Assembly: GCA_900315575.1 (NCBI GenBank)
Contig: OMZR01000045.1
Location: 1 to 46,208, forward strand
From: an uncultured Veillonellaceae bacterium
GTDB taxonomy: Bacteria > Bacillota > Negativicutes > Selenomonadales > Selenomonadaceae
Length of the DNA stretch: 46,208 bases
Reading direction: 5' to 3'
Of the stretch, positions 1-21,066 are shown one piece after another. The notes beneath the pieces are model-generated. The model was given only the letters and a program-made list of their open reading frames with translations, was not told where the DNA came from and did not search any database. Made by a program: the position numbers and the translations under genes. Positions within the stretch are counted from its first letter, which is position 1. Every line of letters starts with the position of its first letter.

Positions 1-2
1 AG

Positions 3-242
3 GGCGACGTGCTCGTCGCGATCTCGAGTTCTGGCCAGTCAGAAAACATCCTGCGTGCGGCGCACCTCATGAATGATCTCGGTGGCACGGTCATGACGTT
101 CACCGGCTTCGCGCCAGACAATCCGCTCCGCCAGCTCGGCGGATTCAACTTCTACGTGCCGAGCGATAAATACGGCATCGTCGAATCCATCCACCAGCTC
201 GTCCTGCAGCAGGCTGTTGACGAACTCATGGAACGTTACTAA
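3..242 (+). CDS. SIS-domain phosphosugar isomerase, C-terminal part (GmhA-like)
   Basis: The reading frame is open from the window edge, so the true start lies outside and only about 79 residues are seen. The segment reads as the second half of a SIS (sugar isomerase) domain: a serine-rich phosphate-binding motif SSSGQSENI near the beginning, then a helix and a strand with MTFTGF, as in sedoheptulose-7-phosphate isomerase (GmhA). In that family the enzyme turns sedoheptulose 7-phosphate into a heptose 7-phosphate in the cytoplasm. The next two genes, an epimerase and an HldE-like kinase/nucleotidyltransferase, fit the same heptose-activation pathway, and the gap of 17 bases suggests one operon. 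Other SIS isomerases cannot be excluded from this fragment. Confidence 0.8.
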   Translation, partial: GDVLVAISSSGQSENILRAAHLMNDLGGTVMTFTGFAPDNPLRQLGGFNFYVPSDKYGIVESIHQLVLQQAVDELMERY

Positions 243-4463: not shown

Positions 4464-5621
4464 ATGCAGGAAATCACAAAGGAGAATGTTCAGCAACTGA
4501 AAAAGCAATTTTTGGCAGACGGTTGCAACATCTTATATGGAGCAGGCGATACGGGGCATCAGATTGGTGCGATCTTAGATGATTTAGGTATCGCAACACA
4601 ATATTGTGTTGATGATGACGAGACAAAACAGGGGACGCAGATGGACGGGAAACCAGTCATTTCACGTATGGAGCTTGCAATGATCGCGGAGAAGCAATCA
4701 GTGAACGTCATCTTGTCAAGCATTTATGCGAAGATGATGGAACAGAAACTTCATGCCTTGCCAGTCCAGGTTTTCAGCATCTTCGGTCTCTATGTATCCG
4801 ACAAAGAAAGAGCATTGACAACGATCCTCAAGCTCAAACAGGCAGAAGAAACATGGCTGAAGAAAATGAAGGAAATTAAAGAATTCTTTTCGGATGCGAT
4901 GTCGCGACGGATTCTGGAAGTTTTGCAGCAAGTGGGATTGGAACGACGTCCGGATGGGCGGCTCGGAAATCCGCGACAAGATTGGTTTGTGGAGATTGCT
5001 TCTTCAGAAGAACACTATTTTGTAGAACCTGTTCCGCGCCTGCTCGGGGATTCATCTGTTTTGGTGGATTGCGGTGCTTATACAGGCGATATGCTTGGAC
5101 AACTGGCGCATCATCAATATCCATTCCGTCGCATTTATGCTTTTGAAGCGAATCCAACGGTGTTTCAAACCTTACTGAAACATGCTGCTGATTTGAACCT
5201 TCAGGAGAAGACAGAAGCCGTCAACTGTGGCGTTTGGAATAAACCGGGAGAGTTGGAATTCCAAGTAAGCGATGTGCACCCTACGGGAGGACAACTGATT
5301 CCGGGGGGGGCACAGGCCAGCGGATACGAAAAAATTACGGTTCGCACCGATACGCTCGACAGCTTGATTTCCGAACCCGTCGATTTTCTCAAGATGGACA
5401 TCGAGGGAGCCGAGTTGCCTGCCTTGCATGGAGCAACAAGGATCCTGAAGGAATCTCGTCCAATTCTGGCGATTTCGATCTATCATTCGCTGGATGATTT
5501 GGCAGATATTCCTATCTTCCTGCATGAGCAAATGAAAGATTATACGTTCTTCTTGCGCCATCATTCTTTTACTGTGGGTGAAACGGTGATGTATGGCATT
5601 CCGAAAGAACGCGAAGCATAA
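4464..5621 (+). CDS. FkbM-family methyltransferase with N-terminal Rossmann-like domain; contains a G8 tract
   Basis: 385 residues. Residues about 18-115 are a small Rossmann-like domain (LYGAGDTGH, then CVDDD). A helical linker follows, and residues ~195-375 form an FkbM-type SAM methyltransferase with motif I VDCGAYTGD, an acidic YAFEANP segment, and FLKMDIEGAE, which is diagnostic of the family. FkbM enzymes usually O-methylate a sugar hydroxyl. A run of eight G (5303-5310) encodes Pro-Gly-Gly-Ala near residue 280. At this length the frame is open to the end; gain or loss of one G would cut off the C-terminal quarter, so the gene may be phase variable. It lies 18 bases after the preceding gene. 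Confidence 0.85.
   Translation: MQEITKENVQQLKKQFLADGCNILYGAGDTGHQIGAILDDLGIATQYCVDDDETKQGTQMDGKPVISRMELAMIAEKQSVNVILSSIYAKMMEQKLHALPVQVFSIFGLYVSDKERALTTILKLKQAEETWLKKMKEIKEFFSDAMSRRILEVLQQVGLERRPDGRLGNPRQDWFVEIASSEEHYFVEPVPRLLGDSSVLVDCGAYTGDMLGQLAHHQYPFRRIYAFEANPTVFQTLLKHAADLNLQEKTEAVNCGVWNKPGELEFQVSDVHPTGGQLIPGGAQASGYEKITVRTDTLDSLISEPVDFLKMDIEGAELPALHGATRILKESRPILAISIYHSLDDLADIPIFLHEQMKDYTFFLRHHSFTVGETVMYGIPKEREA
5303..5310 (+). repeat. Poly-G tract (G8) inside the FkbM methyltransferase gene
   Basis: Eight consecutive G on the coding strand, in frame as written. It is one of four G8-G9 runs in the glycan region and the only one in the middle of a conserved catalytic domain. Such tracts change length by slipped-strand pairing in other bacteria such as Campylobacter; variation here is inferred, not seen. 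Confidence 0.8.
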
Positions 5622-5639
5622 ATTGGAGAGAACCGTAAA

Positions 5640-6701
5640 ATGGCAGAAAACATTCGCATGGATTCCCACAAGTTGCTGTACCACCCAGAACGGGTGACGA
5701 AATGGCTGCGCGGGAAGACAATTTACCCGCTCGAGATGGAGATCGGCATCTCTGGTGGCTGCAATCATCGTTGCATCTTTTGCGCGGTGGATTACATGGG
5801 CTACCAGCCGCGTTTGCTGGAAAAAGACGTGCTCGTCCGCAACTTGCGCCTGCTCGGGCAGAAGGGGCTCAAGAGCATCATCTATGCCGGCGAGGGCGAG
5901 CCGCTTGTGCATCCCGACGCACCGGACATCTTCAATGAGACAAAAGCCTGTGGCATTGATGCAGCGATGTCTACGAACTGTGCGCTGTTCTCGCGGAAAA
6001 AGGCAGAATCATGTTTGAAGTCCCTGACTTGGGTGCGCGTGAGCATCGCGGGCGCGACGGATGCGACGTATGAAAAGATCCATCAGTGCCGCAAAGGCGA
6101 CCTGGAACGCGTTCTTCAGAATATGGAGAACATGGTCGCCGTCAAGCGCGACCAGCAACTTTCGACCACACTCGGCGCACAGTTGTTGCTTTTGCCGGAG
6201 AACAAGGATGAGGTCGTGCAGCTCGCGAAAATCGTGCGCGGCTTCGGCTTCGACTATTTCACAGTCAAGCCGTTTTCCCAGCATCCTTTGAGCAAGGCGA
6301 AGTTGCAAGTGGACTACTCCGAAGCCGAAGAGATCGGCCACGAGCTCAAAGAATACGAGACGGACGATTTCAAAATCTACTTCCGTTCCCGCTCCATCGA
6401 GAACCTTGGCATGGAAAAGCCCTACGACGAGTGCGGCGGCATGCACTTTATGGCCTACATGGATGCGGCAGGCGACGTCTTCCCGTGCATCGTTTTCATG
6501 GGGCGCGACGAATTCGTCTATGGCAACATCCACGACGAGGATTTTCCGACGCTTTGGGAATCCGATCGTGCGAAGAAGATTCGTGCGACGTTCACGGGAG
6601 ACTTCATCCACCAGAACTGCCGTAAGAACTGTCGCCTCGACGAGATCAACAAGTATCTTCACGAACTCAAGCATCCTGGGGCGCATGTGAATTTTATCTG
6701 A
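5640..6701 (+). CDS. Radical SAM/SPASM enzyme (glycan locus, copy 1)
   Basis: 353 residues. The radical SAM CxxxCxxC cluster motif is at Cys41, Cys45 and Cys48 (CNHRCIFC), followed by AGEGEP, the usual glycine-rich SAM-binding strand. Near the C-terminus, DECGGMHF, FPC and CRKNC form a SPASM-like set of extra cysteines for an auxiliary cluster. The protein ends HVNFI. It is clearly related to the radical SAM genes at 7694 and 8890, which share spacing, an N-terminal LLYHPERV-type start and a similar tail. The reaction is unknown; in a sugar locus it might epimerise, dehydrate or rearrange a sugar or a small precursor. The ATG lies 18 bases after the FkbM gene. Confidence 0.88.
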   Translation: MAENIRMDSHKLLYHPERVTKWLRGKTIYPLEMEIGISGGCNHRCIFCAVDYMGYQPRLLEKDVLVRNLRLLGQKGLKSIIYAGEGEPLVHPDAPDIFNETKACGIDAAMSTNCALFSRKKAESCLKSLTWVRVSIAGATDATYEKIHQCRKGDLERVLQNMENMVAVKRDQQLSTTLGAQLLLLPENKDEVVQLAKIVRGFGFDYFTVKPFSQHPLSKAKLQVDYSEAEEIGHELKEYETDDFKIYFRSRSIENLGMEKPYDECGGMHFMAYMDAAGDVFPCIVFMGRDEFVYGNIHDEDFPTLWESDRAKKIRATFTGDFIHQNCRKNCRLDEINKYLHELKHPGAHVNFI

Positions 6702-6728
6702 AGATTGGCAGCGCAAATAGCGGTGCAT

Positions 6729-6763
6729 AAAAAAGCAGCTCCGTCAGTATGAAACTGCGGAGC
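6729..6763 (-). terminator. Intrinsic terminator of the first Rpn gene
   Basis: Read on the minus strand, a GCTCCG...CGGAGC stem with an inner CAGT/ACTG extension is followed by a run of six T. It lies just beyond the stop of the Rpn gene at 6787. Confidence 0.75.
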
Positions 6764-6786
6764 CGTGAAATGAATGTGGTGACGTT

Positions 6787-6960
6787 TTAGGATTCATCGT
6801 CCATGTGGTATTCGCGATAAAGTTCATTTCGAAATGTGATATCTGTTGATGCACGCTCCGCATCCTTTGTACGACCATCACGGAAGAGAGCAGCCATGAG
6901 ATCGGCGAATCGCGCTTCGCCTTCGCTCCGCTGTTTTTTCATTTCCATCATGAGCGTCAT
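6787..6960 (-). CDS. Possible internally initiated C-terminal Rpn fragment (RpnS-like), copy 1
   Basis: Inside the Rpn gene an in-frame ATG at 6960 is preceded by GAGG nine bases upstream (6970-6973 on the minus strand). It would give a 57-residue protein with an MKKQRSEGEARF segment. In some Rpn systems a short C-terminal protein made from such an internal start blocks the toxic full-length nuclease. The ribosome site is only moderate, so this is tentative. Confidence 0.3.
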   Translation of the reverse strand: MTLMMEMKKQRSEGEARFADLMAALFRDGRTKDAERASTDITFRNELYREYHMDDES

Positions 6961-7587
6961 ATATTCCCACCTCGTTTCCTTGTGTTCTTTGACTTTTCGG
7001 ACTTCCTTCTCAATGTCCTTGGCAAAACGTCCTTTTGCCACAAGGCCATTCACATAATCAAGGAAGGCAACGATGTCGGGATCAAGTCCGTCGCGGTTTC
7101 CTTGACTGTTTAAGAAAATTTTCGTCGTTTCGTCTCCCATCGTCAGAGTGGGATTTTCTTTGCACGTTTCTTCGAATGTGTAGAAGCTCTGTCCAGCACC
7201 GAAGGGATCGAATGTGCAGATAAAGATGACGAAAGATGTTCGGAGCTTCGTATAAAATTCGCCCTTGTTCAGCACGTCCATATCCATCATGGCCTGGTAG
7301 TAGCGTGCACGTTTTGGCAGTTCATCAGGTGTGTCGCCATCTGTCGTCTGCATCTCGATGTCATAGAGCGTTCCCTTGTCATCCTCGACAAAGACATCAA
7401 GCCGCACGCTCTTGCTGTCATAGCGGATGTCGATGGCTTTCTCGGTGACAGGGTAAGAAATCCGACGGATGCGGATGCCAAGAATTTTTTCGATGAGTCG
7501 TTTGCATATCCGCCGGTTCTGCATGACTTTGAGAAACAGAAAATTGTCGCGGATGGTCAGCTCATCCCATGTCTTGATTTTTCCCAT
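6787..7587 (-). CDS. Rpn-family PD-(D/E)XK nuclease (copy 1)
   Basis: 266 residues on the strand opposite to the glycan operon. It matches the Rpn/TIGR01784 family, often annotated as a putative transposase but in fact a PD-(D/E)XK nuclease: an N-terminal DELTIRDNFLFLKVM block, then VRLDVFVED and YDIEMQ, which supply the catalytic Asp and the ExQ pair. The ATG at 7587 is chosen over the upstream starts because AAGGGG lies nine bases before it and the family begins here. Known members nick DNA and act in recombination and phage defence. It sits between two radical SAM genes with its own promoter and terminator, so it looks like an inserted cassette. A possible internal start at 6960 is listed separately. 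Confidence 0.85.
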   Translation of the reverse strand: MGKIKTWDELTIRDNFLFLKVMQNRRICKRLIEKILGIRIRRISYPVTEKAIDIRYDSKSVRLDVFVEDDKGTLYDIEMQTTDGDTPDELPKRARYYQAMMDMDVLNKGEFYTKLRTSFVIFICTFDPFGAGQSFYTFEETCKENPTLTMGDETTKIFLNSQGNRDGLDPDIVAFLDYVNGLVAKGRFAKDIEKEVRKVKEHKETRWEYMTLMMEMKKQRSEGEARFADLMAALFRDGRTKDAERASTDITFRNELYREYHMDDES

Positions 7588-7612
7588 CGGAATCATCCCC
7601 TTCTTTGTTCTT

Positions 7613-7641
7613 ATTTTACGGCGAACGGAAGAAAACCGCAA
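7613..7641 (-). promoter_or_regulatory. Promoter of the first Rpn gene
   Basis: On the minus strand TTGCGG (7636-7641), a 17-base spacer and TAAAAT (7613-7618) form a sigma-70-type promoter 26 bases before the start codon. The second Rpn gene has the same layout, and both share TAAAATAAGAA at and just after the -10 box. Confidence 0.5.
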
Positions 7642-7693
7642 GATAGAGAGGGGAGCGGGATGGAAATTGAAGAGAAAGAAGGTAATTTTTCAG

Positions 7694-8842
7694 ATGAAAC
7701 AAAATTTGATTTTGGATGGCAGCAAGGTGCTGTATCATCCTGACCGCGTGCAGGCGTGGCTGCGGGGCGAGCGGATCGCTCCGATCACGATCGATTGTGC
7801 GTTGACAACGCATTGCAGTTATCGCTGCGTCTATTGTTATGGCAAGATGCAGCTTATCAACCAGGCGCCGAACCTGCCGCGTCAGGTTGTCATGGACTTC
7901 CTCGATGATGCGGCGGAGATCGGCGTGAAGGCCATCAGCTTCGTCAGCGATGGCGAGAGTACGTGTAATCCGTGCATGTACGAGGCCATCCAGCACGGCA
8001 AGGCGAATGGCCTCGACATGGCGCTCGGTACAAATGGTTTCCTGCTGAAGGACGAAGAACTGCCGAACATCCTGCCATGCCTGACGTACTTGCGCTTCAA
8101 CATTTCGGCGGGTGAGCGCGACCGCTATGCCTACATCCACGGCTGCGACCCGACGTGCTATGACAAGGTTATCGAGACGATCCGCAAGGCCGTTGCCATC
8201 AAGCGCGAGCAGAAGCTCCCCGTGACGATCGGCCTCCAGATGGTGCTGATGCCCGATTTCCGCGACCAGATCCTACCACTTGCGCAGCTCGGTCGAGAGC
8301 TCGGCGTCGACTACCTCGTCATCAAGCATTGCAGCGATGATGAAGAAGGCACGCTCGGCGTCGATTATGCCGCCTACGATGCACTCGAAGATATCCTGCA
8401 CGAGGCGGAGACCTACAGCACGGAGACATACCAGGTCTCGGTCAAATGGTCGAAAATCCATGCACATGGCACGAAGTGCTACAAGCAGTGCTATGGAACG
8501 CCGTTCATTCTTCAGCTTTCGGGCAGCGGCCTTGTTGCGCCGTGCGGCATGCTCTTCAATGAAAAGTACAAGCGCTTCCACATCGGCAACATCAACGAGC
8601 AGCGTTTTAAGGACATCTGGGCGAGCGACCGTTACTGGGAGGTCATGAACTACATCGCCTCGCCGAAATTCGATGCGCAGACGGAATGCGGCACGCTCTG
8701 CTTGCAGCACAAGACAAACGAAGTCCTCTGGCATATCAAACATGACTTGAATGGACAAATGCCCTCGGGGGGGGGCACAACAGACCAAGGTGCAGCACGT
8801 CAATTTCATCTGAGGCTACTTCCTGAACTCCGGGCCGGCTGA
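7694..8842 (+). CDS. Radical SAM/SPASM enzyme (copy 2), C-terminus shifted at a G9 tract
   Basis: 382 residues as written. The start is the ATG at 7694, because the protein then begins MKQNLILDGSKVLYHPDRV, matching the related gene at 5640, and Cys41, Cys45 and Cys48 (CSYRCVYC) fall at the same positions. SPASM-type cysteines follow near the end (CYKQC, APCG, CGTLC). A run of nine G at 8767-8775 changes the frame: the sequence ends in an unrelated tail at 8842. With eight G the gene would stop at 8811-8813 with the tail HVNFI, as in the sister enzymes. The catalytic core is upstream of the tract, so activity may or may not be lost. The divergent Rpn gene starts 106 bases upstream. Confidence 0.85.
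   Translation: MKQNLILDGSKVLYHPDRVQAWLRGERIAPITIDCALTTHCSYRCVYCYGKMQLINQAPNLPRQVVMDFLDDAAEIGVKAISFVSDGESTCNPCMYEAIQHGKANGLDMALGTNGFLLKDEELPNILPCLTYLRFNISAGERDRYAYIHGCDPTCYDKVIETIRKAVAIKREQKLPVTIGLQMVLMPDFRDQILPLAQLGRELGVDYLVIKHCSDDEEGTLGVDYAAYDALEDILHEAETYSTETYQVSVKWSKIHAHGTKCYKQCYGTPFILQLSGSGLVAPCGMLFNEKYKRFHIGNINEQRFKDIWASDRYWEVMNYIASPKFDAQTECGTLCLQHKTNEVLWHIKHDLNGQMPSGGGTTDQGAARQFHLRLLPELRAG
8767..8775 (+). repeat. Poly-G tract (G9) that shifts the end of a radical SAM gene
   Basis: Nine G in a row. Eight would restore the tail conserved in the two sister enzymes, ending HVNFI at 8811-8813. Nine leads to a 29-base longer frame. This is the clearest sign that tract length matters here. Confidence 0.85.
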
Positions 8843-8889
8843 TTCAGAACAACGATCGATCTTTTTTTGTTTTTCTGAGGAGGCCAGTC

Positions 8890-9969
8890 ATGGAGACCAA
8901 AGCAACCCCGTACAGCAATCTGAAAATCTTTCATCATGCAGAGCTCTTGCAGAAGCTCAAGTGCGGCGAGCGTGTCGCGCCGATCTATATCCGCATCAAG
9001 CCGACGAATATCTGCAACGAGAACTGCTATTATTGCCATTACAAGAATTCGTATCTCGATCTTGGCAACTACCGTCCGAATGACAGCATCCCACGGGAAA
9101 AGATGCTTGAAATCATAGACGACCTTGCCGAAATCGGCACGAAGGCCGTGACGTTCTCCGGTGGCGGCGAGCCTACGGTATATCCGTATATCAATGAGAC
9201 GATGGAGCACGTGCTTGAAAAGGGCATCGATCTCGCCATCATCACGAACGGCACACGCCTTAAAGACCGGACGGCAGAACTGCTCGCTCATGCAAAATGG
9301 GTGCGCTTGTCGATTGATTCAAGCAACGCGAAGCTTTATGCGGAGACGCGCGGTGTCAAAGAAAGCATGTTCCCCGCTCTCTGCCAGAACATCGAATCCT
9401 TTGCAAAGCAGAAAGATGAGGCGTGCGAGCTTAGTGTGAACTATGTCGTCAGCGAACGCAATCATGGAAATGTGCTGGAAATGGCGCGTCTGATGAAATC
9501 GCTCGGCGTCAACCATGTGAAGTTCGCGCCCGTCATCAACAACGATACGGAAGCCTACCATGCACCATTCAAAGAGCAGGTCATGCGCGATCTGGAAGAG
9601 GCCAAGAAGCTCGAGGATGATCATTTCCGCATCATCGACCTCTATACGAGCGACGTCCATCGATGGGAGAGTGGCATTTTGTCGTTCAGCCGAGCCTACA
9701 AGCAGTGCTGGATGAAGGAACTTCATTGCATCATCGCGGCCGATCAGCGCATTTACTACTGTCAGGACAAGGCATACCTGCCCAATGGCGTCGTTGGTGA
9801 CTTGCATGATCGCCGTTTCAAGGATGTCTGGTTCTCGCCAGAGACGACGAAGTTGTTTCGTGAATTTGACGCGCACAAGACGTGCGCCGAGCACTGCGTG
9901 CATGATGACCGCAACATTATGCTGAACCAGTTCTTCTCCATCGACCAGAACCACGTGAATTTCTTGTAA
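8890..9969 (+). CDS. Radical SAM/SPASM enzyme (copy 3)
   Basis: 359 residues. CNENCYYC places the radical SAM cluster at Cys42, Cys46 and Cys49; SGGGEPT is the SAM-binding glycine strand and IITNGT a later core strand. C-terminal cysteines (YKQCWM, LHCI, YYCQ, CAEHC) form a SPASM-like cluster site, and the tail NHVNFL matches copy 1. GAGGAGG stands shortly before the ATG. The substrate is unknown. Three sister enzymes in a row suggest successive steps on one unusual glycan precursor, or paralogues with different substrates. It looks intact, and the next gene follows after 12 bases. Confidence 0.88.
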   Translation: METKATPYSNLKIFHHAELLQKLKCGERVAPIYIRIKPTNICNENCYYCHYKNSYLDLGNYRPNDSIPREKMLEIIDDLAEIGTKAVTFSGGGEPTVYPYINETMEHVLEKGIDLAIITNGTRLKDRTAELLAHAKWVRLSIDSSNAKLYAETRGVKESMFPALCQNIESFAKQKDEACELSVNYVVSERNHGNVLEMARLMKSLGVNHVKFAPVINNDTEAYHAPFKEQVMRDLEEAKKLEDDHFRIIDLYTSDVHRWESGILSFSRAYKQCWMKELHCIIAADQRIYYCQDKAYLPNGVVGDLHDRRFKDVWFSPETTKLFREFDAHKTCAEHCVHDDRNIMLNQFFSIDQNHVNFL

Positions 9970-9981
9970 GGGGGCAGCAGC

Positions 9982-10644
9982 ATGCAGTATATCGACTTCA
10001 TCGAGCAGCAGCACAAGAGCACGAAGCGCGACTACCTCGGCCGTGTCAACGAGGCGAGCAAGGCGGAATGTGCAAAGATTGCCAAGCAGTTCGGCTATGA
10101 CTTCTTTGATGGTGAGCGCAAATACGGCTATGGCGGCTACAAATACGACGGCCGCTGGGCACCGGTCGCGAAGCAGATGATCGAGCATTACGGCCTCCGG
10201 CCAGGCATGAAGGTGCTCGACGTCGGCTGTGGCAAGGGTCACCTGCTTTATGAAATGAAGAAGCAGATGCCAGAGCTCAACGTGCTCGGCATCGACCCGT
10301 CCGAGTATGCGATCACGCATACAGTGAAGGAGATCGAGCCCGATTTGCAGGTTGGCCGTGCGCAAGACCTCGGCCGTTTTGGCGACAATGAATTCGACCT
10401 CGTCATCTCGCTCAACGCCATTCACAACCTCTACATCTACGACCTCGTTGATGCAGTCAAAAATATCGAGCGCATTGGCCGCCAGAAATACATTGTCGTC
10501 GAATCCTATCGTACAGAAGAAGAGCGTGTCAACATGCTCTATTGGCAACTGACCTGCGAATGCTTCTTCAAGGTGGAAGAGTGGGAATGGATCTACAAGC
10601 AGTGCGGGTATACGGGGGATTACAGCTTTATTTTCTTTGACTAA
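9982..10644 (+). CDS. Class I SAM-dependent methyltransferase
   Basis: 220 residues. Motif I, VLDVGCGKGH, is at about 78-87, followed by an acidic residue in LGIDPSEYA and motif IV-like FDLVISLNAIHNL, the usual layout of Methyltransf_11/25 small-molecule methyltransferases. A preceding YKYDGRWA segment may contact the substrate. It is probably soluble and works on a sugar nucleotide or precursor made by the radical SAM enzymes next to it. GGGG stands close before the ATG, and the gap to the preceding radical SAM gene is 12 bases. The acceptor cannot be told from sequence. Confidence 0.85.
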   Translation: MQYIDFIEQQHKSTKRDYLGRVNEASKAECAKIAKQFGYDFFDGERKYGYGGYKYDGRWAPVAKQMIEHYGLRPGMKVLDVGCGKGHLLYEMKKQMPELNVLGIDPSEYAITHTVKEIEPDLQVGRAQDLGRFGDNEFDLVISLNAIHNLYIYDLVDAVKNIERIGRQKYIVVESYRTEEERVNMLYWQLTCECFFKVEEWEWIYKQCGYTGDYSFIFFD

Positions 10645-10673
10645 GATACAAATGAAAAGCGATAGGTGAGTAC

Positions 10674-11567
10674 ATGAAGATTTTACTGACAGGTGCGAGT
10701 GGCTTTATTGGCCGCACGTTGTTAAGGCGTCTTCAACAAGAAGGTCATGAGGTTCTGGCGCTTTGTCATGCACATCAAGAGAATGGCATGTCGCTTGTGT
10801 CTTGTGACTTGTCAAAGCCGCTGACGTTGGCAGGAACATTCGATATTATCATTCATGCAGCAGGCATCTCGCCAGCACAGACGACATCGATGAAGGTGTT
10901 CAAGCATGCGAATGTAGACAGCATGGAAAATCTGCTGGCCTGGGCATCTGCAGGTCATGCAAGGCGCATGATTTTTCTCTCTTCGGTGAGCGTCTATGGA
11001 AAGATCCAGTCTGCGTGCATTGACGAAGATACTCCGATCATACAGCCAGATGATTATGGACTTTCCAAATACGTTGCCGAACGGCTGTTGTTGGAATCCA
11101 CAAAGGTAGAAGGACTTGTCTTGAGGCTTCCGGGCGTGTTCGGCATTCAGGCCGAGCGCCCATGGCTTGCGCATGTCGTGCAGAAATGCATGCGTGGCGA
11201 GGATGTGACGATCTACGCACCGGAATTCGTCGGCAATAACTATCTTTATATCGAAGATCTTGCGGCTTTCATCTTACAGTTGCTCGAAGAGAAATGGACG
11301 GGAAAAACGCTCCTTCTTGGTTTGACAAAGGGAATTGCTATCCGCCAGGCCGTTGAGGTTGTGCGCCATAAGATTGGTTCTGGATCGCGTATCGTAGTAG
11401 AAGAAAGCAAGACAGCACCTTTTACTTTAGATGTCAGCCGCGCTGTACGTCACGGTTTTGCTTCGCATAGTTTTATGTCCATGATTGATGGATGCCTGTG
11501 CGGGGGGGGTGGAAGCAACCACGATGATTTTGTGTATGCCACTGCAATCGATAAGGTGGCATCATGA
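10674..11567 (+). CDS. NAD-dependent epimerase/dehydratase (SDR); G8 tract near the end
   Basis: 297 residues. It begins with the Rossmann motif LLTGASGFIGRTL, then IIHAAGIS, a Ser segment FLSSVSVYG, and YGLSKYVAER, which supplies the Tyr and Lys of the active site. It belongs to the extended SDR family acting on NDP-sugars. A run of eight G (11502-11509) lies 18 codons from the end; in the present frame the gene stops at a TGA that overlaps the ATG of the next gene by four bases, so the two are probably translationally coupled. One more G would stop it about ten codons earlier and uncouple the next gene. The last ~25 residues look unlike a conserved domain. Confidence 0.85.
   Translation: MKILLTGASGFIGRTLLRRLQQEGHEVLALCHAHQENGMSLVSCDLSKPLTLAGTFDIIIHAAGISPAQTTSMKVFKHANVDSMENLLAWASAGHARRMIFLSSVSVYGKIQSACIDEDTPIIQPDDYGLSKYVAERLLLESTKVEGLVLRLPGVFGIQAERPWLAHVVQKCMRGEDVTIYAPEFVGNNYLYIEDLAAFILQLLEEKWTGKTLLLGLTKGIAIRQAVEVVRHKIGSGSRIVVEESKTAPFTLDVSRAVRHGFASHSFMSMIDGCLCGGGGSNHDDFVYATAIDKVAS
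11502..11509 (+). repeat. Poly-G tract (G8) near the 3' end of an epimerase gene
   Basis: Eight G in frame with a stop that overlaps the next start codon. A change of one base would move the stop away from that junction, so the tract could tune coupled translation of the following reductase gene. This effect is inferred. Confidence 0.75.
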
Positions 11568-12457
11568 AACAGTTGTTAGTTATCGGTGCGAGCGGGCTTG
11601 TCGGCAGGCGTGTGTATGAGCGGGCGAAAGCGGCAGGACTGGAGGTTGTTGGGACTTCGACGCATGGAAGCGGGACATTGGCATCCTTTGATCTGCTTCG
11701 TGATGCCCCTGAGCGATTACGTGATCTTCTACCGCTGGATACGGAGACGGCGGTTGTCGTGGCGGCAGGTAAGACAGAGATCCGCTGGTGCAGGGAGCAT
11801 CCGAGGGAGGCATACGCCATCAATGTTGCGGAGATGCAACGGTTGCTTGCATACGTCGTCGGGCAAGGAACGCAGGCCGTATGGTTTTCAAGCGATGCTG
11901 TTTTTGACGGCAGGCGTGGAAACTATACGGAGACAGATAAACCATCACCGCTGAATCTTTATGGCCAGCAAAAAGCTGAGATGGAAACATGGCTGGAGGA
12001 TCATCTGCCGCAGGTGCTTGTTTATCGCCTCGCAAAGCTCGCAGACGATCGCTTCGAGGGAAGGCATCTCTTTTCCAACTTGTACCAGCAGTACCAGAGC
12101 GGCCAGCCCATCCGTTGTATTGAGGGGCTGACGTTCAACCCGACGGCTGTGGATGACATCGCGGCCTGCGTACTGCTCGGCCTGAAGCAGCATCTTCATG
12201 GTCGGTACAACGTTGCGAATCCGCAGTCGTATACGCGAGAACAAATTGCAAGGCTCTTTGTCGGCGATCGGCCATGCATGATCGAGAGCCTGCCGCTTGC
12301 AGTGTGGCATTTTAGCGAACCAAAAGCACTCGATACAACGCTCGACACGGCGAAGTTTCAGAAGGCGTGCGGAGGGTATGCATTTCAATCGATGGATGAG
12401 CTGTTAGCATCGTTCTGGCAGCAGATTGAAGCACATGGAGGTGGAACACCAATATGA
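11564..12457 (+). CDS. RmlD-like NDP-sugar reductase (SDR)
   Basis: 297 residues with an N-terminal LVIGASGLVGRRVY dinucleotide motif and the RmlD-type features VVVAAGKTE, YAINV, WFSSDAVFDG and the active-site YGQQKAEME. Enzymes of this group reduce a 4-keto-NDP-sugar such as dTDP-4-dehydrorhamnose. The gene overlaps the previous epimerase by four bases (ATGA) and the next gene by four bases, so all three are probably made together. The substrate is likely the sugar produced by the preceding epimerase and transketolase genes, but that is inference. Confidence 0.8.
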   Translation: MKQLLVIGASGLVGRRVYERAKAAGLEVVGTSTHGSGTLASFDLLRDAPERLRDLLPLDTETAVVVAAGKTEIRWCREHPREAYAINVAEMQRLLAYVVGQGTQAVWFSSDAVFDGRRGNYTETDKPSPLNLYGQQKAEMETWLEDHLPQVLVYRLAKLADDRFEGRHLFSNLYQQYQSGQPIRCIEGLTFNPTAVDDIAACVLLGLKQHLHGRYNVANPQSYTREQIARLFVGDRPCMIESLPLAVWHFSEPKALDTTLDTAKFQKACGGYAFQSMDELLASFWQQIEAHGGGTPI

Positions 12458-14152: not shown

Positions 14153-14231
14153 CGAGGTCAAAGAAGAAAACGGCATCGGGCAGGATGCAGTGGTTAGTCT
14201 CATAAAGAAACTTTTGTGAGGATGTTTGTTC

Positions 14232-15470
14232 ATGGAAGAAAAAATCAGCATTGTTGTTCCCGTCTACAACAAGGAGAAGTATCTATATCAGTGCCTTGAA
14301 AGCCTTCGAATGCAAACCTATCAGAACATTGAAATTCTTCTCGTCGATGATGAATCGACAGATGATTCTCCTTCTGTTTGTCAGAGATTCTGTCAGATGG
14401 ATATGCGCTTTCGCTATATTCGTCAGAAGAATGGTGGACAGAATGCAGCACGGAAAACTGGCGCTGAAATGACGCAGGGCGCATGGGTGATGTTTGTCGA
14501 TGCTGATGATTATGTATCGCCAGAAATGTGTGCTGTGCTTATGCAGCACCAGGAGGAAACTGGAGCAGATATGGTTTATGGATGTATCCAAAAAGTTCCT
14601 GGCAAGAAAGGCGAGAACGCCTATCACGGATGGGATGGTGTGCTGTCTGGAAAGGAAATCCTCAGAAATGTTTTGCCGATTGGAAGTTCGGTGAGAAAAA
14701 GGAAAAGTGGCGTCAGTGGATTGGGGTGCGGATTGTTCCCCATCCTGATGCGGCTGGAGTTTGCTTTGGATGCATTTCGTCATGTGGACATGCGTATCCG
14801 ATACTCGGAAGATCTTGGATGCCTCTTTTATATCTTATTGCGTGTGGAGAGTGTCGCCTTTGTACCAGAAATCGTTTATTACTATCGGCAAACACCTGGA
14901 TCGGCCTTGCATGCGCAGGGGCGGAGCTGTCTGCTGTCGACGAAATGGCTTCAAGCGTTTTTGGAAAAGCAATTTCGGGAGCAAGGGATGTTGCTAGAAG
15001 ATGAATGTCTAATCGAGCAGGCGTTGATCCGTACATTGCTTTGCGGGGGATATGAGTTCTTTGATGATTATCCAGGCATTTATCCATTTTTCCAAGGGCC
15101 GCGCGGGAGACGTCTCGCCGTTTATGGTGCTGGCGTGGTCGGCAAGGAACTTGTATATAAGCTGTCGGGCTTCGAACTTGCGGGATGGTTTGACCGGGAT
15201 TTCGAGCGATACCGGGCATTGAGGATGAATGTTCAAAGTCCGGCAGAAATCGCGCATTGTGATTTTGATGTGATGGTCATCGCGATCCAGCATCCAGAAA
15301 TTGCGGAGGTTGTCCGTAATAGCCTCGTGGAGGAATTGCCATTGGGGGTGCAGATATATACCTTTTCGGAAGAAATTCTCTGTTCCGGATATACGAAACG
15401 TAAGATGAAAGAACTGCATGATGTTGATGAGAACTATATCTATCAGCCACGTTCAGAAAATGAGAAGTAG
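14232..15470 (+). CDS. GT2 glycosyltransferase with C-terminal Rossmann-like domain
   Basis: 412 residues. The ATG at 14232 is preferred to an in-frame TTG two codons upstream because GAGG lies ten bases before it. The N-terminus is a GT-A family 2 domain: ISIVVPVYNKEKYL, LLVDDESTDDS and FVDADDYV (the DxD metal motif). A C-terminal domain from about residue 293 begins RLAVYGAGVVGKEL and continues AGWFDRD, the small Rossmann-like module shared across this locus. It likely transfers a sugar from a nucleotide sugar at the inner face of the membrane. The intact frame of the transketolase gene would end 12 bases before it. Confidence 0.85.
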   Translation: MEEKISIVVPVYNKEKYLYQCLESLRMQTYQNIEILLVDDESTDDSPSVCQRFCQMDMRFRYIRQKNGGQNAARKTGAEMTQGAWVMFVDADDYVSPEMCAVLMQHQEETGADMVYGCIQKVPGKKGENAYHGWDGVLSGKEILRNVLPIGSSVRKRKSGVSGLGCGLFPILMRLEFALDAFRHVDMRIRYSEDLGCLFYILLRVESVAFVPEIVYYYRQTPGSALHAQGRSCLLSTKWLQAFLEKQFREQGMLLEDECLIEQALIRTLLCGGYEFFDDYPGIYPFFQGPRGRRLAVYGAGVVGKELVYKLSGFELAGWFDRDFERYRALRMNVQSPAEIAHCDFDVMVIAIQHPEIAEVVRNSLVEELPLGVQIYTFSEEILCSGYTKRKMKELHDVDENYIYQPRSENEK

Positions 15471-15480
15471 AGGGGTATAA

Positions 15481-17073
15481 ATGAGGGTGCTTGCGATGTA
15501 CCTCCCGCAGTTCCACCGCGTGCGGGAGAATGATGCCTGGTGGGGCGAAGGGTTCACGGAATGGACGACGGTGCGATCGGCGGAGCCGTTGTTTCCGAGG
15601 CATGAACAGCCGAAAGTACCGATGAATCATCGCTATTATAATCTCCTCGATCCTGAGACGATGCGCTGGCAGGCGGAGCTCATGCATCGCTATGACGTGG
15701 ATGGCATGTGTTTCTACCACTATTATTTCAAGGATGGCCGCCGCATCCTTGAGCGTCCGGCAGAGAATCTTCTCCGCTGGAAGGACATCGACATGCCGTT
15801 TTGTTTTTCCTGGGCAAACGAGTCCTGGGTGCGGTCGTGGAGCCGGATGTCGCAGAATGAGGGGAATCCATGGTCGGCGAAGTTCGACGGTGCGGCGAAG
15901 CCGGGGGATGACGGCATCCTGCTCACGCAGGCATATGGCGATGAAGTTGCCTGGCGTGCGCATTATGCGTATCTTTCGCCGTTCTTTCACGACCTACGTT
16001 ACATCCTGCACGACAACATGCCGCTGTTCCTGATCTACAAGCCAGACCTTATCCCCTGTTTGCGCGAGATGCTGGCCTGCTGGGATGAGCTCGCACGTGC
16101 CGAGGGATTCGATGGCGTCTATGTCGTCGGAACGAATGTCCGTGATGCGGCAGCCAAAGGGCTGAAGGGCGTAAACCTGCAGGAACCGCAGGATACGATG
16201 CGGCGTTTCTTCCCAGAGAACTACCAGAATCCGGATCATGTCGCGAAAAGCCTGGATTATGCGGAAGTCTGGCAGCGCCTTGTCAACAAATCCGTTCCGC
16301 AGGGGATTTCCCTTGGCGGGTTCGCTGGCTATGACGATACGCCGCGCCGCGGCCACGGCGGGTCTGTCATTCGCAAGCGGTCGCCGGAGATCTTTCAGCG
16401 CGGGATGATAGCGCTTCTTCGAAAGGCGGAAACGGTCGGGTCACCCTATATCTTCCTCAATGCATGGAATGAATGGGGCGAGGGAATGTATCTTGAGCCC
16501 GATGAAAAAGATGGACTTGCGTTCCTTGAAGCGCTAAAGGCAGCACGGAAAGACGCGAAGCGACATCTGGAGGTGGATGACGAGAAAATGGCATCCACGG
16601 GCGCTTCATCATCCTCGGAAGCGTCTGCAAAAATCGATGCACTTGTGGCTGAAAATGCGACGCTGGCAAAGAATTGCGACCGTTATCGCGGCTACTGGAC
16701 GACCATGGAGACCTGGATCGGCTTGCTGGAGACCGGCGGCAGCATTGCAACATGGCTGCGGTCGCAAGGCATCCAGAATATTGCGATTTACGGCCTCGGC
16801 ATGATGGGAAAGCATCTTTTGTACCAGCTGCAAAAAGAGAAATTTTCCGTGTACTATGCCATCGACCAGCAGACGGAACAGGGGCATGGTGAACTTTCTG
16901 TTTATGCGTTGGAAGATGAACTGCCGGATGCTGATGCTGTCCTTGTGACGGTGCTCTATGATTATCCGCGCATCCGTGCTTCACTGGAGGGACGTCATCC
17001 ATGGCGCATCTGGGCACTTGACGAAGTACTGCGGGCAGCATCGGGGCGCGAGGAGTTGGGAGGTACGAAATGA
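15481..17073 (+). CDS. WbsX/GH99-like glycan protein with C-terminal Rossmann-like domain
   Basis: 530 residues. The first ~360 residues match the WbsX family (glycoside hydrolase 99-like): MYLPQFHRVRENDAWWG, EGFTEWT, CFYHYYFKDGR, CFSWANESW and NAWNEWGEG. WbsX proteins are common in O-antigen and capsule clusters and are usually listed as glycosyltransferases, although the fold is that of a hydrolase. A short low-complexity Ser/Ala linker (~370-385) leads to a C-terminal Rossmann-like domain from about 430 (IAIYGLGMMGKHLLY, then YYAIDQQ). The gene overlaps the next by four bases. Transferase versus endo-hydrolase action is not decided. Confidence 0.8.
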   Translation: MRVLAMYLPQFHRVRENDAWWGEGFTEWTTVRSAEPLFPRHEQPKVPMNHRYYNLLDPETMRWQAELMHRYDVDGMCFYHYYFKDGRRILERPAENLLRWKDIDMPFCFSWANESWVRSWSRMSQNEGNPWSAKFDGAAKPGDDGILLTQAYGDEVAWRAHYAYLSPFFHDLRYILHDNMPLFLIYKPDLIPCLREMLACWDELARAEGFDGVYVVGTNVRDAAAKGLKGVNLQEPQDTMRRFFPENYQNPDHVAKSLDYAEVWQRLVNKSVPQGISLGGFAGYDDTPRRGHGGSVIRKRSPEIFQRGMIALLRKAETVGSPYIFLNAWNEWGEGMYLEPDEKDGLAFLEALKAARKDAKRHLEVDDEKMASTGASSSSEASAKIDALVAENATLAKNCDRYRGYWTTMETWIGLLETGGSIATWLRSQGIQNIAIYGLGMMGKHLLYQLQKEKFSVYYAIDQQTEQGHGELSVYALEDELPDADAVLVTVLYDYPRIRASLEGRHPWRIWALDEVLRAASGREELGGTK

Positions 17074-18788
17074 AATATGCGATTTATGGCGCGAACCGCG
17101 TCGCAAAAGATTTTTTCTATATGTTCCGAGAGCTCGATATCGTTTGCTGCTATGCAGCGGAAGGGGAAGATACAGCGGTTTTTGCCGCAGGGACGGGACG
17201 TATCTGCAAGCCGCAGGCAGACCTGGCGGCGGGACGGTCAGAAGTCGACGTCATCATCGTCTGCGATTTTCCAGGCGCGACGAAAAAGGCCAAGATAGCA
17301 TATCTCGAATCTCTTGGCCTGACGCACGGCAAGGATTACCGACTGGAAGAGGACTTTTTTTGCGCTTTTGATGAGGAGAAGCTCAATCTGGCAAAAAAGC
17401 AGATTTTTATCTGGGGCTGCGGGCGCAAGGGAGAGATGTTTTACCATTGGAATGCACGTCGCGAGCATCCTTATCTGATTGCTGCATTTCTCGACATGCA
17501 TCCAGAGAATGTCGGCCAGTTCTGCGGTCATGATGTCGAGCACCCCGAGGACAGGCTTGAGGAAGATAACGCGTTCTTTGTCGTGACAGTCAAAAAGAAC
17601 GCTGACATTCTCCAAACGCTCGAAGCACATGGCAAGCAGCATTTTCGCGACTATTGCACGTATGACGATCTCATGTCGCTGCCGTCCGAGATGCTGCGCC
17701 GCACGATGTTCGAGCGGCAGGTCTACGACTTGTTCTGTGAGAGCATGCTGAACCATGCCGAAGTCGGCGATGGCGACGTAATCTGTTGCTGCTCGACGTT
17801 CATCGAGAATACGATCGGTCGCATCGATGCGACGCATGATTTCAAAGATTGCTGGCAGTCGCCACTCCATCGCATCCTGTGCCTTGCAACCGTGAACCGG
17901 ACGTATACCTTCTGCCTTACGGACATGTGCCCGCTCTTTATCGGGCGCACGAAATCAGAGGTTTATGGCCTCGCACGTCCATATCCCGAGATCGAGTCGT
18001 CACCACGTACGGTTGCGGTCGGCTTTGATGGGACATGCAATCTCCGATGCATCACGTGCCGCGACGAATTCCGCATTGCGAAAGGCAAAGAAGCGAAGCA
18101 GTGCCAGCACTATGCGGATGTCGTGGCCAAGGACGCATTGCCCGGCTGTGAATTCCTCATCATGGCGGGCAATGGTGAAGTGCTCCTGAGTCCCGCCTAC
18201 CATGCGCTCTATACAGATCCGGCCGTCCGCCATTTGAAATGGTTGCGCCTGCTCACGAACGGCACGCTTTTCACACCGGAAAAGTGGAAGGAACTCCGCT
18301 CACACACCGATGCGAAGATCATGATGACCGTCTCCATCGACGCAGCGACAAAGGAAACCTACGAAAGCATCCGGCGTGGCGGCCATTTCGACCAGCTGGA
18401 AAAGAACATGGAGTACGCCGCAGAACTCCGCAAGCGTGGCGAACTTTCCTACCTGCGCTTCAACTTCGTCGTGCAGCGGAAGAACTATCAGGAAATGATT
18501 CCCTTTGTAGAGTGGGGCGAGCGGCTCGGCATCGACGAATGCTTCTTTACGAAGATCCTGAACTGGGGCACGTACACACGCGAAGAGTTCAAAGACATCA
18601 GCATGATGCAGGAAGACGGCCTGACTCCGAAGCCAGAGCTCCAAGCTGTCCTCGATGATCCCGTCCTGCAGCACAAGATCGTTGATCTCGGCACGATCCG
18701 GTATCATCACGAAGACGCAGGAGCACGCGAGGTCAAGAACTACTATCGCTGGGAGCTCGAACGGAAAGTGCCGGGGCTGTTCCAATGA
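17070..18788 (+). CDS. Radical SAM protein with two N-terminal Rossmann-like domains
   Basis: 572 residues. The protein starts with a Rossmann-like domain (KYAIYGANRVAKDFF) and has a second from about 110 (QIFIWGCGRKGEMFY, AAFLDMHPENVGQ). A MoaA/NifB-type radical SAM domain follows, with CNLRCITC at Cys323, Cys327 and Cys330, then LTNGT and SIDAATKETYESIR. No C-terminal SPASM cysteine cluster is seen, unlike the three other radical SAM proteins. It is the only protein here with two copies of the shared domain. It overlaps the WbsX gene by four bases. Function unknown, presumably glycan-precursor or tether chemistry. Confidence 0.82.
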   Translation: MKYAIYGANRVAKDFFYMFRELDIVCCYAAEGEDTAVFAAGTGRICKPQADLAAGRSEVDVIIVCDFPGATKKAKIAYLESLGLTHGKDYRLEEDFFCAFDEEKLNLAKKQIFIWGCGRKGEMFYHWNARREHPYLIAAFLDMHPENVGQFCGHDVEHPEDRLEEDNAFFVVTVKKNADILQTLEAHGKQHFRDYCTYDDLMSLPSEMLRRTMFERQVYDLFCESMLNHAEVGDGDVICCCSTFIENTIGRIDATHDFKDCWQSPLHRILCLATVNRTYTFCLTDMCPLFIGRTKSEVYGLARPYPEIESSPRTVAVGFDGTCNLRCITCRDEFRIAKGKEAKQCQHYADVVAKDALPGCEFLIMAGNGEVLLSPAYHALYTDPAVRHLKWLRLLTNGTLFTPEKWKELRSHTDAKIMMTVSIDAATKETYESIRRGGHFDQLEKNMEYAAELRKRGELSYLRFNFVVQRKNYQEMIPFVEWGERLGIDECFFTKILNWGTYTREEFKDISMMQEDGLTPKPELQAVLDDPVLQHKIVDLGTIRYHHEDAGAREVKNYYRWELERKVPGLFQ

Positions 18789-18791
18789 GAT

Positions 18792-18824
18792 AAAAATAGC
18801 TCTGGAGCACGAAGCTGCAGAGCC
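18792..18824 (-). terminator. Intrinsic terminator of the second Rpn gene
   Basis: On the minus strand a GCTCTG...CAGAGC stem is followed by a T-rich run (TATTTTTA). It lies between the radical SAM stop at 18788 and the Rpn stop at 18841 and resembles the terminator after the first Rpn gene in size and position. Confidence 0.6.
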
Positions 18825-18840
18825 GTTAGAAGCTATGGAA

Positions 18841-19083
18841 TTATTCGACCGCAAGCCCGTTTTTCTGGGCGAGTGCACGGATTTGGTCAGCTGTCCAGCC
18901 CGAAATGCGCTCAATCACATCGATGTGCATGTGCTCTTTGAGCATATTGAGAATCATCTCGCCCTTTCCTTCCGAACGACCTTCCGAGCGACCTTCCGAG
19001 CGACCTTCCGAGCGTCCTTCTTCCCTTGCGTATTCTTCACGGTATTTCCTGGCTTCTTCTTCGTTCCATTGCAGTGAAAACAT
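18841..19083 (-). CDS. Predicted internally initiated C-terminal Rpn protein (RpnS-like antitoxin)
   Basis: An in-frame ATG at 19083 inside the Rpn gene is preceded by AAGGAGG (19092-19098 on the minus strand) with an eight-base spacer, better than the site of the parent gene. The product would be 80 residues: MFSLQWNEEEARKY, four GRSE units and a C-terminal helix pair. In described Rpn systems a C-terminal protein made this way neutralises the full-length nuclease. The AAG GAG GTT codons encode Lys-Glu-Val of the parent, so the ribosome site might be partly coincidental. Expression is inferred. Confidence 0.55.
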   Translation of the reverse strand: MFSLQWNEEEARKYREEYAREEGRSEGRSEGRSEGRSEGKGEMILNMLKEHMHIDVIERISGWTADQIRALAQKNGLAVE

Positions 19084-19743
19084 ATTGATAACCTCCTTGC
19101 CATATTGCTTGAGAAAGTTTTTCAGAATGCCTTGGTCGATACAGGCGAACACCGCTTGTTGGATAGCTTCGTCATCGGTCATGCCATGCAGCTGGTTTGC
19201 ATGAATGAGATACACAAGGTAGCTGTAGTCATGTAACGGCTGGCAGGCATTCAGGATTTCGCTGTTGCAGTCATAGGAAATGTCGATGACGTGGCAGACG
19301 AGCTCGAGGTCGCCGTCCTGCGGATTCTCAAACGCATCAGAAAGTCTGAGCTCTGGACGGGGCGCGGATAGCTTCGGACCGTTGTAGAGAATGTAGAACT
19401 TCGGCGTCGGAATTTTGACGAGCTTCGAGAGGTAGATGGCGCGCTTGGCGTCTCGTTCCTTGATGATTTTCCGATACATTTTGTCAATGTATGGCAACAT
19501 CCGCAGAGGCATATTCTCGTTCCACGTGCTCTGGTGCTCGATGAGGATGACAGACTTGCCCTTCCAGAGAAACGAGAGGTCGTTTTTCTGGCTGTCGAGA
19601 AAGACGTTCCGGAGTGTCGTGATCTTGATGTCTTTCGGGAGTACTTCGATGCCGGGCTGGATGGCTTGGTAGAGCTTCGCGAGTTCTCTGCGGTTGTTGA
19701 AGAGCTTGCGGAAGACGGAGTCCTTGACTTGACGATTCGCCAT
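18841..19743 (-). CDS. Rpn-family PD-(D/E)XK nuclease (copy 2) with GRSE repeats
   Basis: 300 residues on the minus strand. The start at 19743 has AAGGGAAG shortly upstream and gives the family N-terminus MANRQVKDSVFRKLF. The catalytic core reads DLSFLWKG, then VILIEHQS, supplying the acidic residue and the ExQ pair. The C-terminus has four Gly-Arg-Ser-Glu units followed by a helical ERISGWTADQIRAL segment, typical of Rpn proteins. It interrupts the glycan operon like copy 1, with its own promoter and terminator. An internal start at 19083 with a perfect ribosome site suggests a second product. Known relatives are DNA nucleases in phage defence and recombination. Confidence 0.87.
   Translation of the reverse strand: MANRQVKDSVFRKLFNNRRELAKLYQAIQPGIEVLPKDIKITTLRNVFLDSQKNDLSFLWKGKSVILIEHQSTWNENMPLRMLPYIDKMYRKIIKERDAKRAIYLSKLVKIPTPKFYILYNGPKLSAPRPELRLSDAFENPQDGDLELVCHVIDISYDCNSEILNACQPLHDYSYLVYLIHANQLHGMTDDEAIQQAVFACIDQGILKNFLKQYGKEVINMFSLQWNEEEARKYREEYAREEGRSEGRSEGRSEGRSEGKGEMILNMLKEHMHIDVIERISGWTADQIRALAQKNGLAVE
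18969..19020 (-). repeat. Four 12-bp tandem repeats encoding Gly-Arg-Ser-Glu
   Basis: Units of CTTCCGAGCGAC, one with a single change, occur at 18969, 18981, 18993 and 19005, ending in a partial unit. As 12 is a multiple of three, copy number could vary without breaking either the Rpn protein or its internal C-terminal product, both of which contain it. Confidence 0.9.
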
Positions 19744-19768
19744 GCTGTCACTTCCCTTTATGATTCTT

Positions 19769-19797
19769 ATTTTACATAGATTTTTCTTGGTTGGCAA
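19769..19797 (-). promoter_or_regulatory. Promoter of the second Rpn gene
   Basis: On the minus strand TTGCCA (19792-19797), a 17-base spacer and TAAAAT (19769-19774) form a good sigma-70 promoter 25 bases before the Rpn start. The -10 region TAAAATAAGAA is shared with the first Rpn gene. Confidence 0.6.
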
Positions 19798-19818
19798 GAT
19801 GAATGAGGATTCTCATTT

Positions 19819-21021
19819 ATGAGGAAGACTGGGAAACTCGAGATAGTTCCAGGTTGTTTGAGCGAGTTTCTTGAGAGATGGTGCAAGAGTATGAGACTTG
19901 GGATTTATGCGTTTTATGATGCAGAAGGAATTGCGGATGAGGGGGACTTAATCTATCTTTCGGCAGTGCGTAACGAGCTTGACGAACTCATCATCGTCGT
20001 AAATGGAAAGCTGGCATCCAGAACACGAGTAGTTTTCGAATGCTATGCATCGCAGATTTTCTGTCGGGAGAATCACGGATATGATGGCGGTGCGTTTCAA
20101 GAGGTCTTGCTCAAACATTTGCCGCGCACGGTATGGGAGGCTGTCGATGAGCTGGTTCTGTTCAATAATACGGTGTATGGACCGCTTCAGCCACTTTCAC
20201 CCATCTTCAAAGGTTTCTTCGCATCGCAAGCAGATTTCTGGGGAATGACACTCTTTCATGCTCCAGAGCTGCCCGATCATATTCAGAGCTACTTTTTGGC
20301 TTTCAAAAAATCGGTGCTCCAATCATCGGCCTTTTGGAATTTCTGGAAAAACTTGCGAATGGATTTCACCGTTTCTGATTATCTGATTGCCTCATATGAA
20401 ATTCGCTTTACGGAGACACTACATCGAGCGGGTTTCCGATATGGCGTGTTGCAGGTGATGAAGGGCGACCAGATTTATGACGAGCCGCTCAAGAGTTATG
20501 AGATGGGGATCCCCGTTTTGAAGAAGAAGATTTTTCGGTCGTCCGCATTCCGGATTCGGCCTGCGGAGTATGAGGCGCTCTTGCAACACTTGGAAAACGA
20601 GCATCCGGAGGTTGCTTCTGCCGTGCATGCCTACATGCGGCACCATCGTTATCATTGGAAGGAAGCGCCAACGTATCGAGGGCTCTGTTGGTCAAATGAA
20701 GCTGTTCTTGCGGCAGTACGGCCATATCGAAGGATTTATTTCTATGGTTGCACGGTTCGCAGCTTCTATTTGATGTCGCTGCTCTCCGCTGAAGAACGCT
20801 TCTTTGTCGAAAGCGATGCATGTTGGCACGGTTCGCAGCAGGGCGAATATCGCGTCCTGCGCCTGTCAGAAATTTTTGTCCGCCGGGGGGGGGACGCTAT
20901 CATGGTGGTATTCATGCGCAGACATAATGCAGACCCGTTGCGGGAGAGATTGGGACGGCTCTTCGAGCATGTCATCTATCTCTGCGATCCCATGCCAATG
21001 GGAGAGACGGCATCCTCCTGA
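19819..21021 (+). CDS. RgpF-like rhamnan synthesis F protein with C-terminal Rossmann-like domain; G9 tract
   Basis: 400 residues. The main domain matches the rhamnan synthesis F family: LGIYAFYDAEG, ENHGYDGGAFQE, LFNNTVYGPL, FWGMTLFHAP and SYFLAFKKSVL. These proteins help build rhamnose-rich polysaccharides and are probably glycosyltransferases. From about residue 304 a small Rossmann-like domain follows (IYFYGCTVRS). A run of nine G (20885-20893) lies in this domain at about residue 356; with nine G the frame is open to the end, so a slip would delete the last ~45 residues. The start is uncertain: ATG 19819 has weak GAGG upstream, and ATG 19891 would fit the family start better. Confidence 0.75.
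   Translation: MRKTGKLEIVPGCLSEFLERWCKSMRLGIYAFYDAEGIADEGDLIYLSAVRNELDELIIVVNGKLASRTRVVFECYASQIFCRENHGYDGGAFQEVLLKHLPRTVWEAVDELVLFNNTVYGPLQPLSPIFKGFFASQADFWGMTLFHAPELPDHIQSYFLAFKKSVLQSSAFWNFWKNLRMDFTVSDYLIASYEIRFTETLHRAGFRYGVLQVMKGDQIYDEPLKSYEMGIPVLKKKIFRSSAFRIRPAEYEALLQHLENEHPEVASAVHAYMRHHRYHWKEAPTYRGLCWSNEAVLAAVRPYRRIYFYGCTVRSFYLMSLLSAEERFFVESDACWHGSQQGEYRVLRLSEIFVRRGGDAIMVVFMRRHNADPLRERLGRLFEHVIYLCDPMPMGETASS
20885..20893 (+). repeat. Poly-G tract (G9) in the RgpF-like gene
   Basis: Nine G encoding Arg-Gly-Gly in the C-terminal Rossmann-like domain. The frame is open at this length. It is the longest such run together with the one at 8767. Confidence 0.8.
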
Positions 21022-21066
21022 TGCTCTTTCTGCAAGGTCACATTTCCTGGAAGGGAAGTGTGCGGC

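Follow-up and report, generated by a model that had tools for sequence, protein, structure and literature searches.

Guanine runs as candidate contingency tracts in a glycan operon of an uncultured Selenomonadaceae bacterium, with a putative phase-variable attenuator upstream

We analyzed a 46,208-nucleotide (nt) stretch of DNA, hereafter the window, which comprises positions 1 to 46,208 (forward strand) of contig OMZR01000045.1 in GenBank assembly GCA_900315575.1, from an uncultured Veillonellaceae bacterium that GTDB places in the Selenomonadaceae. A long glycan operon in this window carries four runs of eight or nine guanines. We consider it likely that these runs are contingency tracts belonging to a genome-wide set, and that the operon is headed upstream by a phase-variable attenuator. 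The runs, the reading frames, the hairpin, the overlaps between stops and starts, and the conservation of these features were read directly from the sequence. Phase variation in this genome is, in our assessment, well supported by the sequence but not proven.

Counting over the full window, we found exactly four G runs of at least 8 nt, all on the sense (+) strand and each within a glycan gene. A G8 run (5303 to 5310) lies in the gene for an FkbM-type methyltransferase (4464 to 5621, +; Pfam Methyltransf_21, residues 202 to 355), and a G9 run (8767 to 8775) in that for a radical SAM/SPASM protein (7685 to 8842, +; identified by Pfam Radical_SAM/SPASM and the endings of its homologues). A second G8 run (11502 to 11509) lies in an NAD-dependent epimerase gene (10674 to 11567, +; Pfam Epimerase and frame table), and a second G9 run (20885 to 20893) in an RgpF-like gene (19819 to 21021, +; Pfam RgpF, residues 57 to 242). 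The original prediction had named these four runs, their placement on the coding strand of glycan genes, and a lack of C tracts of similar length, and all of this proved exact: no C run in the window reaches 6 nt, the longest being 5. Below the four runs, the window holds a single G6 and no G7. A second-order Markov model predicts 0.11 runs of at least eight G in the window versus the 4 observed, and the genome's own rate (49 runs of at least 8 in 3.16 Mb) predicts about 0.7 (P = 0.005 for four or more), an enrichment of about six-fold over the whole genome. Based on the 30 runs outside the window that do not belong to the hairpin class described below, the P value is 0.001 for the full window; for the 15.6-kb span holding the four runs, which was picked post hoc, it is 2e-5.

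In the FkbM, epimerase, and RgpF-like genes, the frame is open across the run at its assembled length, and the radical SAM gene is the odd one out, in agreement with the predicted three genes in frame and one out. With the assembled G9, the radical SAM protein ends in ..LRLLPELRAG*, and with G8 it would end in ..QTKVQHVNFI*. All 12 homologues we inspected end in H-[IVLM]-N-F-I-stop, and none of the 12 has a G run there. Since only G8 gives the homologue-type ending (HVNFI) while the assembly has G9, we conclude that the assembled radical SAM gene is a shifted allele. The FkbM run lies 73% of the way along its gene, and the gain or loss of one base from G8 leads to truncation within the FkbM domain. 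The other three runs fall within the last fifth of their open reading frames (ORFs), at 94% (radical SAM), 93% (epimerase), and 89% (RgpF-like), which suggests that a slip in these genes would rewrite the C terminus and the junction to the next gene rather than act as a plain off-switch. In the epimerase gene, G9 ends the ORF at 11527 and G7 at 11619; its present stop overlaps the start of an RmlD-like gene at 11564 (ATGA), and a slip would also shift this overlapping stop codon. In the RgpF-like gene, G10 leads to truncation at 20927 and G8 to extension to 21070. The run in this last gene also sits within a promoter-like sequence, TTGTCC-16-TATCAT (20872 to 20904, read by eye only), which is similar to the spacer-type runs found elsewhere in the genome and could drive a DUF5672 gene at 21058.

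The genome, a draft assembly of 221 contigs, contains 49 G/C runs of at least 8 nt, and we inspected the surroundings of all of them. Exact run lengths (59 G7, 23 G8, 17 G9, 6 G10, and 3 G11) form a heavy tail relative to geometric decay, which predicts about 9, 1.5, 0.2, and 0.04 runs of G8 through G11. Fifteen of the 49 runs form a separate class of intergenic hairpin repeats, ranging from CCCCC-TCTAGA-GGGGGG to CCCCCC-TCTAGA-GGGGGGG and followed by ACGGGCCCGAAGGGC (L071, L073, L074, L077, L079, L081, L083, L106, and others). This family swells simple counts of G runs. Among the other 34 runs, 25 are located within or immediately ahead of genes for surface carbohydrates (LicD, GtrII, FkbM, CDP-glycerol transferases, capsule synthesis, nucleotidyltransferases, SIS, epimerases, and PIG-L), flagellin, ShlB-type secretion, or DNA methyltransferases (N6_N4_Mtase domains, and N6_Mtase with Methylase_S). 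Only 1 of 19 control genes, a flagellin, fell into the same classes (Fisher P ~1e-6, with controls sampled by position and classification done by hand and unblinded). Some runs are placed within coding sequence, others in -35/-10 spacers or leader ORFs; several lie between the -35 and -10 elements of promoter-like sequences such as TTGCGGGGGGGGGACAGACCCTGTATAAT. This promoter-spacer layout recurs in other genera of the family with contiguous genomes, and two contiguous genomes of genus g9 have G9 to G13 runs at the starts of TonB-dependent receptor genes (L129, L130, L134, L135, L137, and L138). Rfam gave no match for the hairpin-class or promoter-run loci apart from tRNA and 5S.

Given the heavy-tailed lengths, the concentration in surface and methylation genes, the placement of the runs, and the frameshifted alleles, we read the genome-wide pattern as one of contingency loci. 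As expected of such loci, the homopolymers appear to reach slippage-prone lengths beyond chance, a one-base change would alter frame or promoter spacing, and the affected genes are concentrated, by their predicted functions, among those for surface structures or restriction-modification. The suggestion of phase variation in the original prediction thus gains support from the length spectrum, the gene enrichment, and the frameshifted alleles, with one correction: four tracts are indeed in the glycan locus, but runs occur genome-wide, mostly in other surface genes, with the 15 hairpins as a separate class. The prediction had named a surplus of runs with no relation to glycan genes as evidence to the contrary, and only those 15 hairpin elements answer to this description. 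The set resembles the poly-G/C contingency loci of Campylobacter and Helicobacter, where runs of G8 to G11 occur in surface-glycan, methyltransferase, flagellar, and restriction genes and in promoters, although the host here belongs to the Negativicutes (PMC6321876, PMC8355987). In Helicobacter canadensis, runs near the 3' ends of genes change the C terminus without turning the gene off (PMC2823697), and three of the four window runs are similarly near the 3' end; unlike in that species, closely spaced or overlapping operon genes follow, and translational coupling may change as well.

Several individual loci deserve mention. A G run lies near the start of an N6/N4 DNA methylase gene (L068, C60:28638), and another near the 3' end of a fused methylase/specificity gene whose assembled frame ends 169 codons early (L069, C66:27612); phase-variable methylation is possible at both. 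A G10 run sits, in frame as assembled, in the variable middle of a flagellin gene (L072, C69:17930). Lachnospiraceae glycan loci with relatives of the window's heptose and radical SAM genes (L006, L007, and L008) also have G9 to G10 runs. We considered a run-length difference between contigs C111 and C119 as a within-sample polymorphism and rejected it, as the ends that the two have in common proved to be a tandem repeat with 95% identity.

Two other accounts of the runs have to be weighed. It is quite improbable that the four window runs are invariant chance runs of Gly-Gly codons in GC-rich sequence: all four do encode Gly-rich stretches, and GGG accounts for 16% of glycine codons, but this account is at odds with the 0.11 runs expected, with a single G6 and no G7 beside four G8 to G9 runs, with the clustering (P of 0.001 to 0.005), with the surface-gene enrichment, and with the frameshifted allele at 8767. 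The runs could instead be real and their odd lengths, at 8767 and in the leaders described below, be homopolymer errors of sequencing or assembly. A 221-contig draft with several runs close to contig ends makes such errors conceivable, homopolymers being error-prone, yet we regard this as unlikely. Three of the four window genes have an open frame, as does one of the five leaders, which indicates that errors are not systematic; the same promoter-type and 5'-coding runs occur in other genera with few, long contigs, and a G7/G8 difference was found in two separate congener assemblies.

Five of the runs (on contigs C84, C117, C133, C167, and C182) share one leader module, which consists, in order, of a promoter-like TTGCTA-17-TATGAT, a ribosome-binding site, a short ORF with the G run about 10 codons downstream of its start, a hairpin of ~30 bp, and U4 to U5. 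The hairpin usually ends 25 to 90 nt upstream of the first gene's ATG. In all five, the repeat lies inside a leader ORF with its own ribosome-binding site, and one run length modulo 3 keeps this ORF open across the hairpin as far as the next gene's ATG, while the remaining two frames stop at codons 12 to 20, 40 to 65 nt upstream of the hairpin. The open-frame stop overlaps the next start as ATGA in C133, C167, and C182; it also overlaps in C84 and lies 9 nt upstream in C117. As assembled, only the C167 leader (G8) is open; C117 (G10) and the remaining three are closed. Rfam had no match in the leaders. A miniature inverted-repeat transposable element was considered on inspection and rejected, since the inverted repeat is at one end only and the cassette takes in a promoter and an ORF.

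The C117 leader most likely heads the window operon. The end of C117 is identical to window bases 1 to 99, and 99 nt is also the overlap length at other contig ends of this assembly. Joining the two contigs rebuilds a 190-amino-acid SIS-domain (GmhA-like; SIS_2) gene, the operon's first, whose 5' part lies on C117 and whose 3' end occupies window positions 1 to 242 (+). On the strength of this overlap and the rebuilt gene, we propose that a leader in the closed frame, its G10 run starting at window-relative position -512, precedes the operon.

Further copies of the leader were sought with a covariance model. Within the same genome, a copy on C59 has lost the run, and its frame is open to a SIS gene. 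Two congeners have the leader before the same cytidylyltransferase gene, with G8 (open) in G006 C3 and G7 (closed) in G003 C14; this one orthologous leader, in two congeners only, is the extent of the same-locus length comparison. In a further copy at a contig edge, G006 C32, the run is interrupted, the frame is open, and the start codon has no clear ribosome site. In another genus (G020), a diverged leader before the orthologue of the C133 gene has a single long frame that stops precisely at the base of a 26-bp hairpin. An alignment of nine leader hairpins shows compensatory change at 6 base pairs.

In E. coli, pyrBI attenuation works through translation of a leader ORF through an intrinsic terminator, which permits read-through. 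The leaders described here would have that arrangement in common with pyrBI; control there is by UTP-dependent pausing, and here it would be by a heritable frame switch. To our knowledge, leader-frame attenuation of the present kind has been shown experimentally only for Streptococcus gallolyticus pili. At the pil1 locus of that species, a change in repeat number within the leader ORF decides whether ribosomes open the terminator (PMC3894217). As in pil1/pil3, a repeat lies within a leader ORF before a surface operon, and the frame places the stop either upstream of or within/after a terminator-like stem-loop; translation-dependent read-through would be a further likeness (PMC3894217). The pil1-type features present in our leaders are the repeat in an ORF with a ribosome-binding site, the frame-set stop, and the stem-loop with a U run. 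The pilus loci have GCAGA pentamers, whereas here we find poly-G, a hairpin of ~30 bp, and glycan operons; the module recurs at least five times per genome, and its ORF ends on the next gene's ATG.

By analogy with this layout, we infer frame-dependent attenuation, perhaps combined with translational coupling to the first gene; slippage, termination, and read-through are all part of what is inferred. Slipped-strand gain or loss of a G would alter reading frame or promoter spacing, and with it surface glycans, flagellin, secretion, and DNA methylation would vary. Within the long glycan operon, one window run would truncate the FkbM methyltransferase, while the other three would rewrite or cut a C terminus and possibly alter the junction to translation of the next gene. 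At the leader, the promoter would drive a short ORF with the G run near its start and the hairpin and U4 to U5 inside it. At an open-frame run length, ribosomes would trail RNA polymerase through the hairpin, block termination, and halt where the first glycan gene begins, at its ATG; in the two closed frames, translation would end 40 to 65 nt ahead of the hairpin, which could then form and turn the operon down.

Two other roles for the leader can be considered. It might act by translational coupling only: translation through the hairpin would expose the first glycan gene's start, and the hairpin would be no terminator. We hold this to be a less probable account that nonetheless deserves weight: nearly all leaders have their open-frame stop on or right beside the next ATG, and the Shine-Dalgarno sites are weak, but U4 to U5 follow directly on a hairpin that usually ends well before the ATG, and the G020 leader stops at the hairpin foot rather than at the gene, which anti-termination fits better. 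Hairpin leaders ahead of glycan operons are typical of control by NusG paralogues, and the hairpin could accordingly be a loading site for a LoaP/RfaH-type antiterminator, with the G run incidental. This is very improbable, as we found only one NusG-domain gene in the genome, i.e., no paralogue, and the frame architecture would be left unexplained.

Some observations weigh against frame-dependent attenuation and against contingency tracts in the window. Few genomes of the family have the leader (the covariance model matches 4 of 151), and the C117-window join depends on one assembler overlap. A consensus scan detects the promoter in the C167 leader and not in C117 (8 of 12 matches by eye), and the terminator rule of that scan is unable to count stems longer than 20 bp. 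The true frame of the leader peptides shows no surplus of synonymous change; a conserved functional leader protein was rejected on this ground, and what is kept seems to be the openness of the frame rather than the peptide sequence. In the family sample, we found no close orthologues of the four window genes, with none available for tract comparison for FkbM, RgpF, and the epimerase, and no orthologue carrying a run was found for any of the four window runs. The comparison of tract length among relatives that had been proposed as a check thus yields the G7 and G8 of one leader in congeners and nothing for the window runs.

Most work on phase-variable surface sugars concerns mucosal pathogens, and our searches of the open-licence literature returned no account of repeat-based phase variation for Selenomonas or other Negativicutes. 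This gut-type member of the Negativicutes appears to hold a full set of switches, for glycans, flagellin, two-partner secretion, and DNA methyltransferases. A re-used leader cassette would place whole glycan operons under stochastic control through attenuation. We lean toward the view that poly-G leader cassettes, present in multiple copies before different glycan operons, switch whole pathways independently and on top of single-gene switches, which would be a first in Negativicutes and the first such case built from homopolymers. Such switching would bear on phage resistance and on the host interactions of commensals, and the frame predictions are precise.

Behind the SIS-domain gene, the operon continues with an NAD-dependent epimerase gene (260 to 1264, +; Pfam Epimerase/GDP_Man_Dehyd) and an HldE-like fused cytidylyltransferase/PfkB kinase gene (1274 to 2818, +; Pfam CTP_transf_like and PfkB). 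Two ORFs that resemble the PDDEXK_2 transposase family lie within the glycan locus (6787 to 7641 and 18841 to 19797, both on the - strand), each immediately upstream of, and on the opposite strand to, a run-bearing gene. At two further loci (L084:900-990 and L099:3920-4020), spacer-run promoters lead directly into a short terminator-like hairpin common to both, ACAGCGAACATC..GATGTCCGCTGTTTTTTT, and have no leader ORF.

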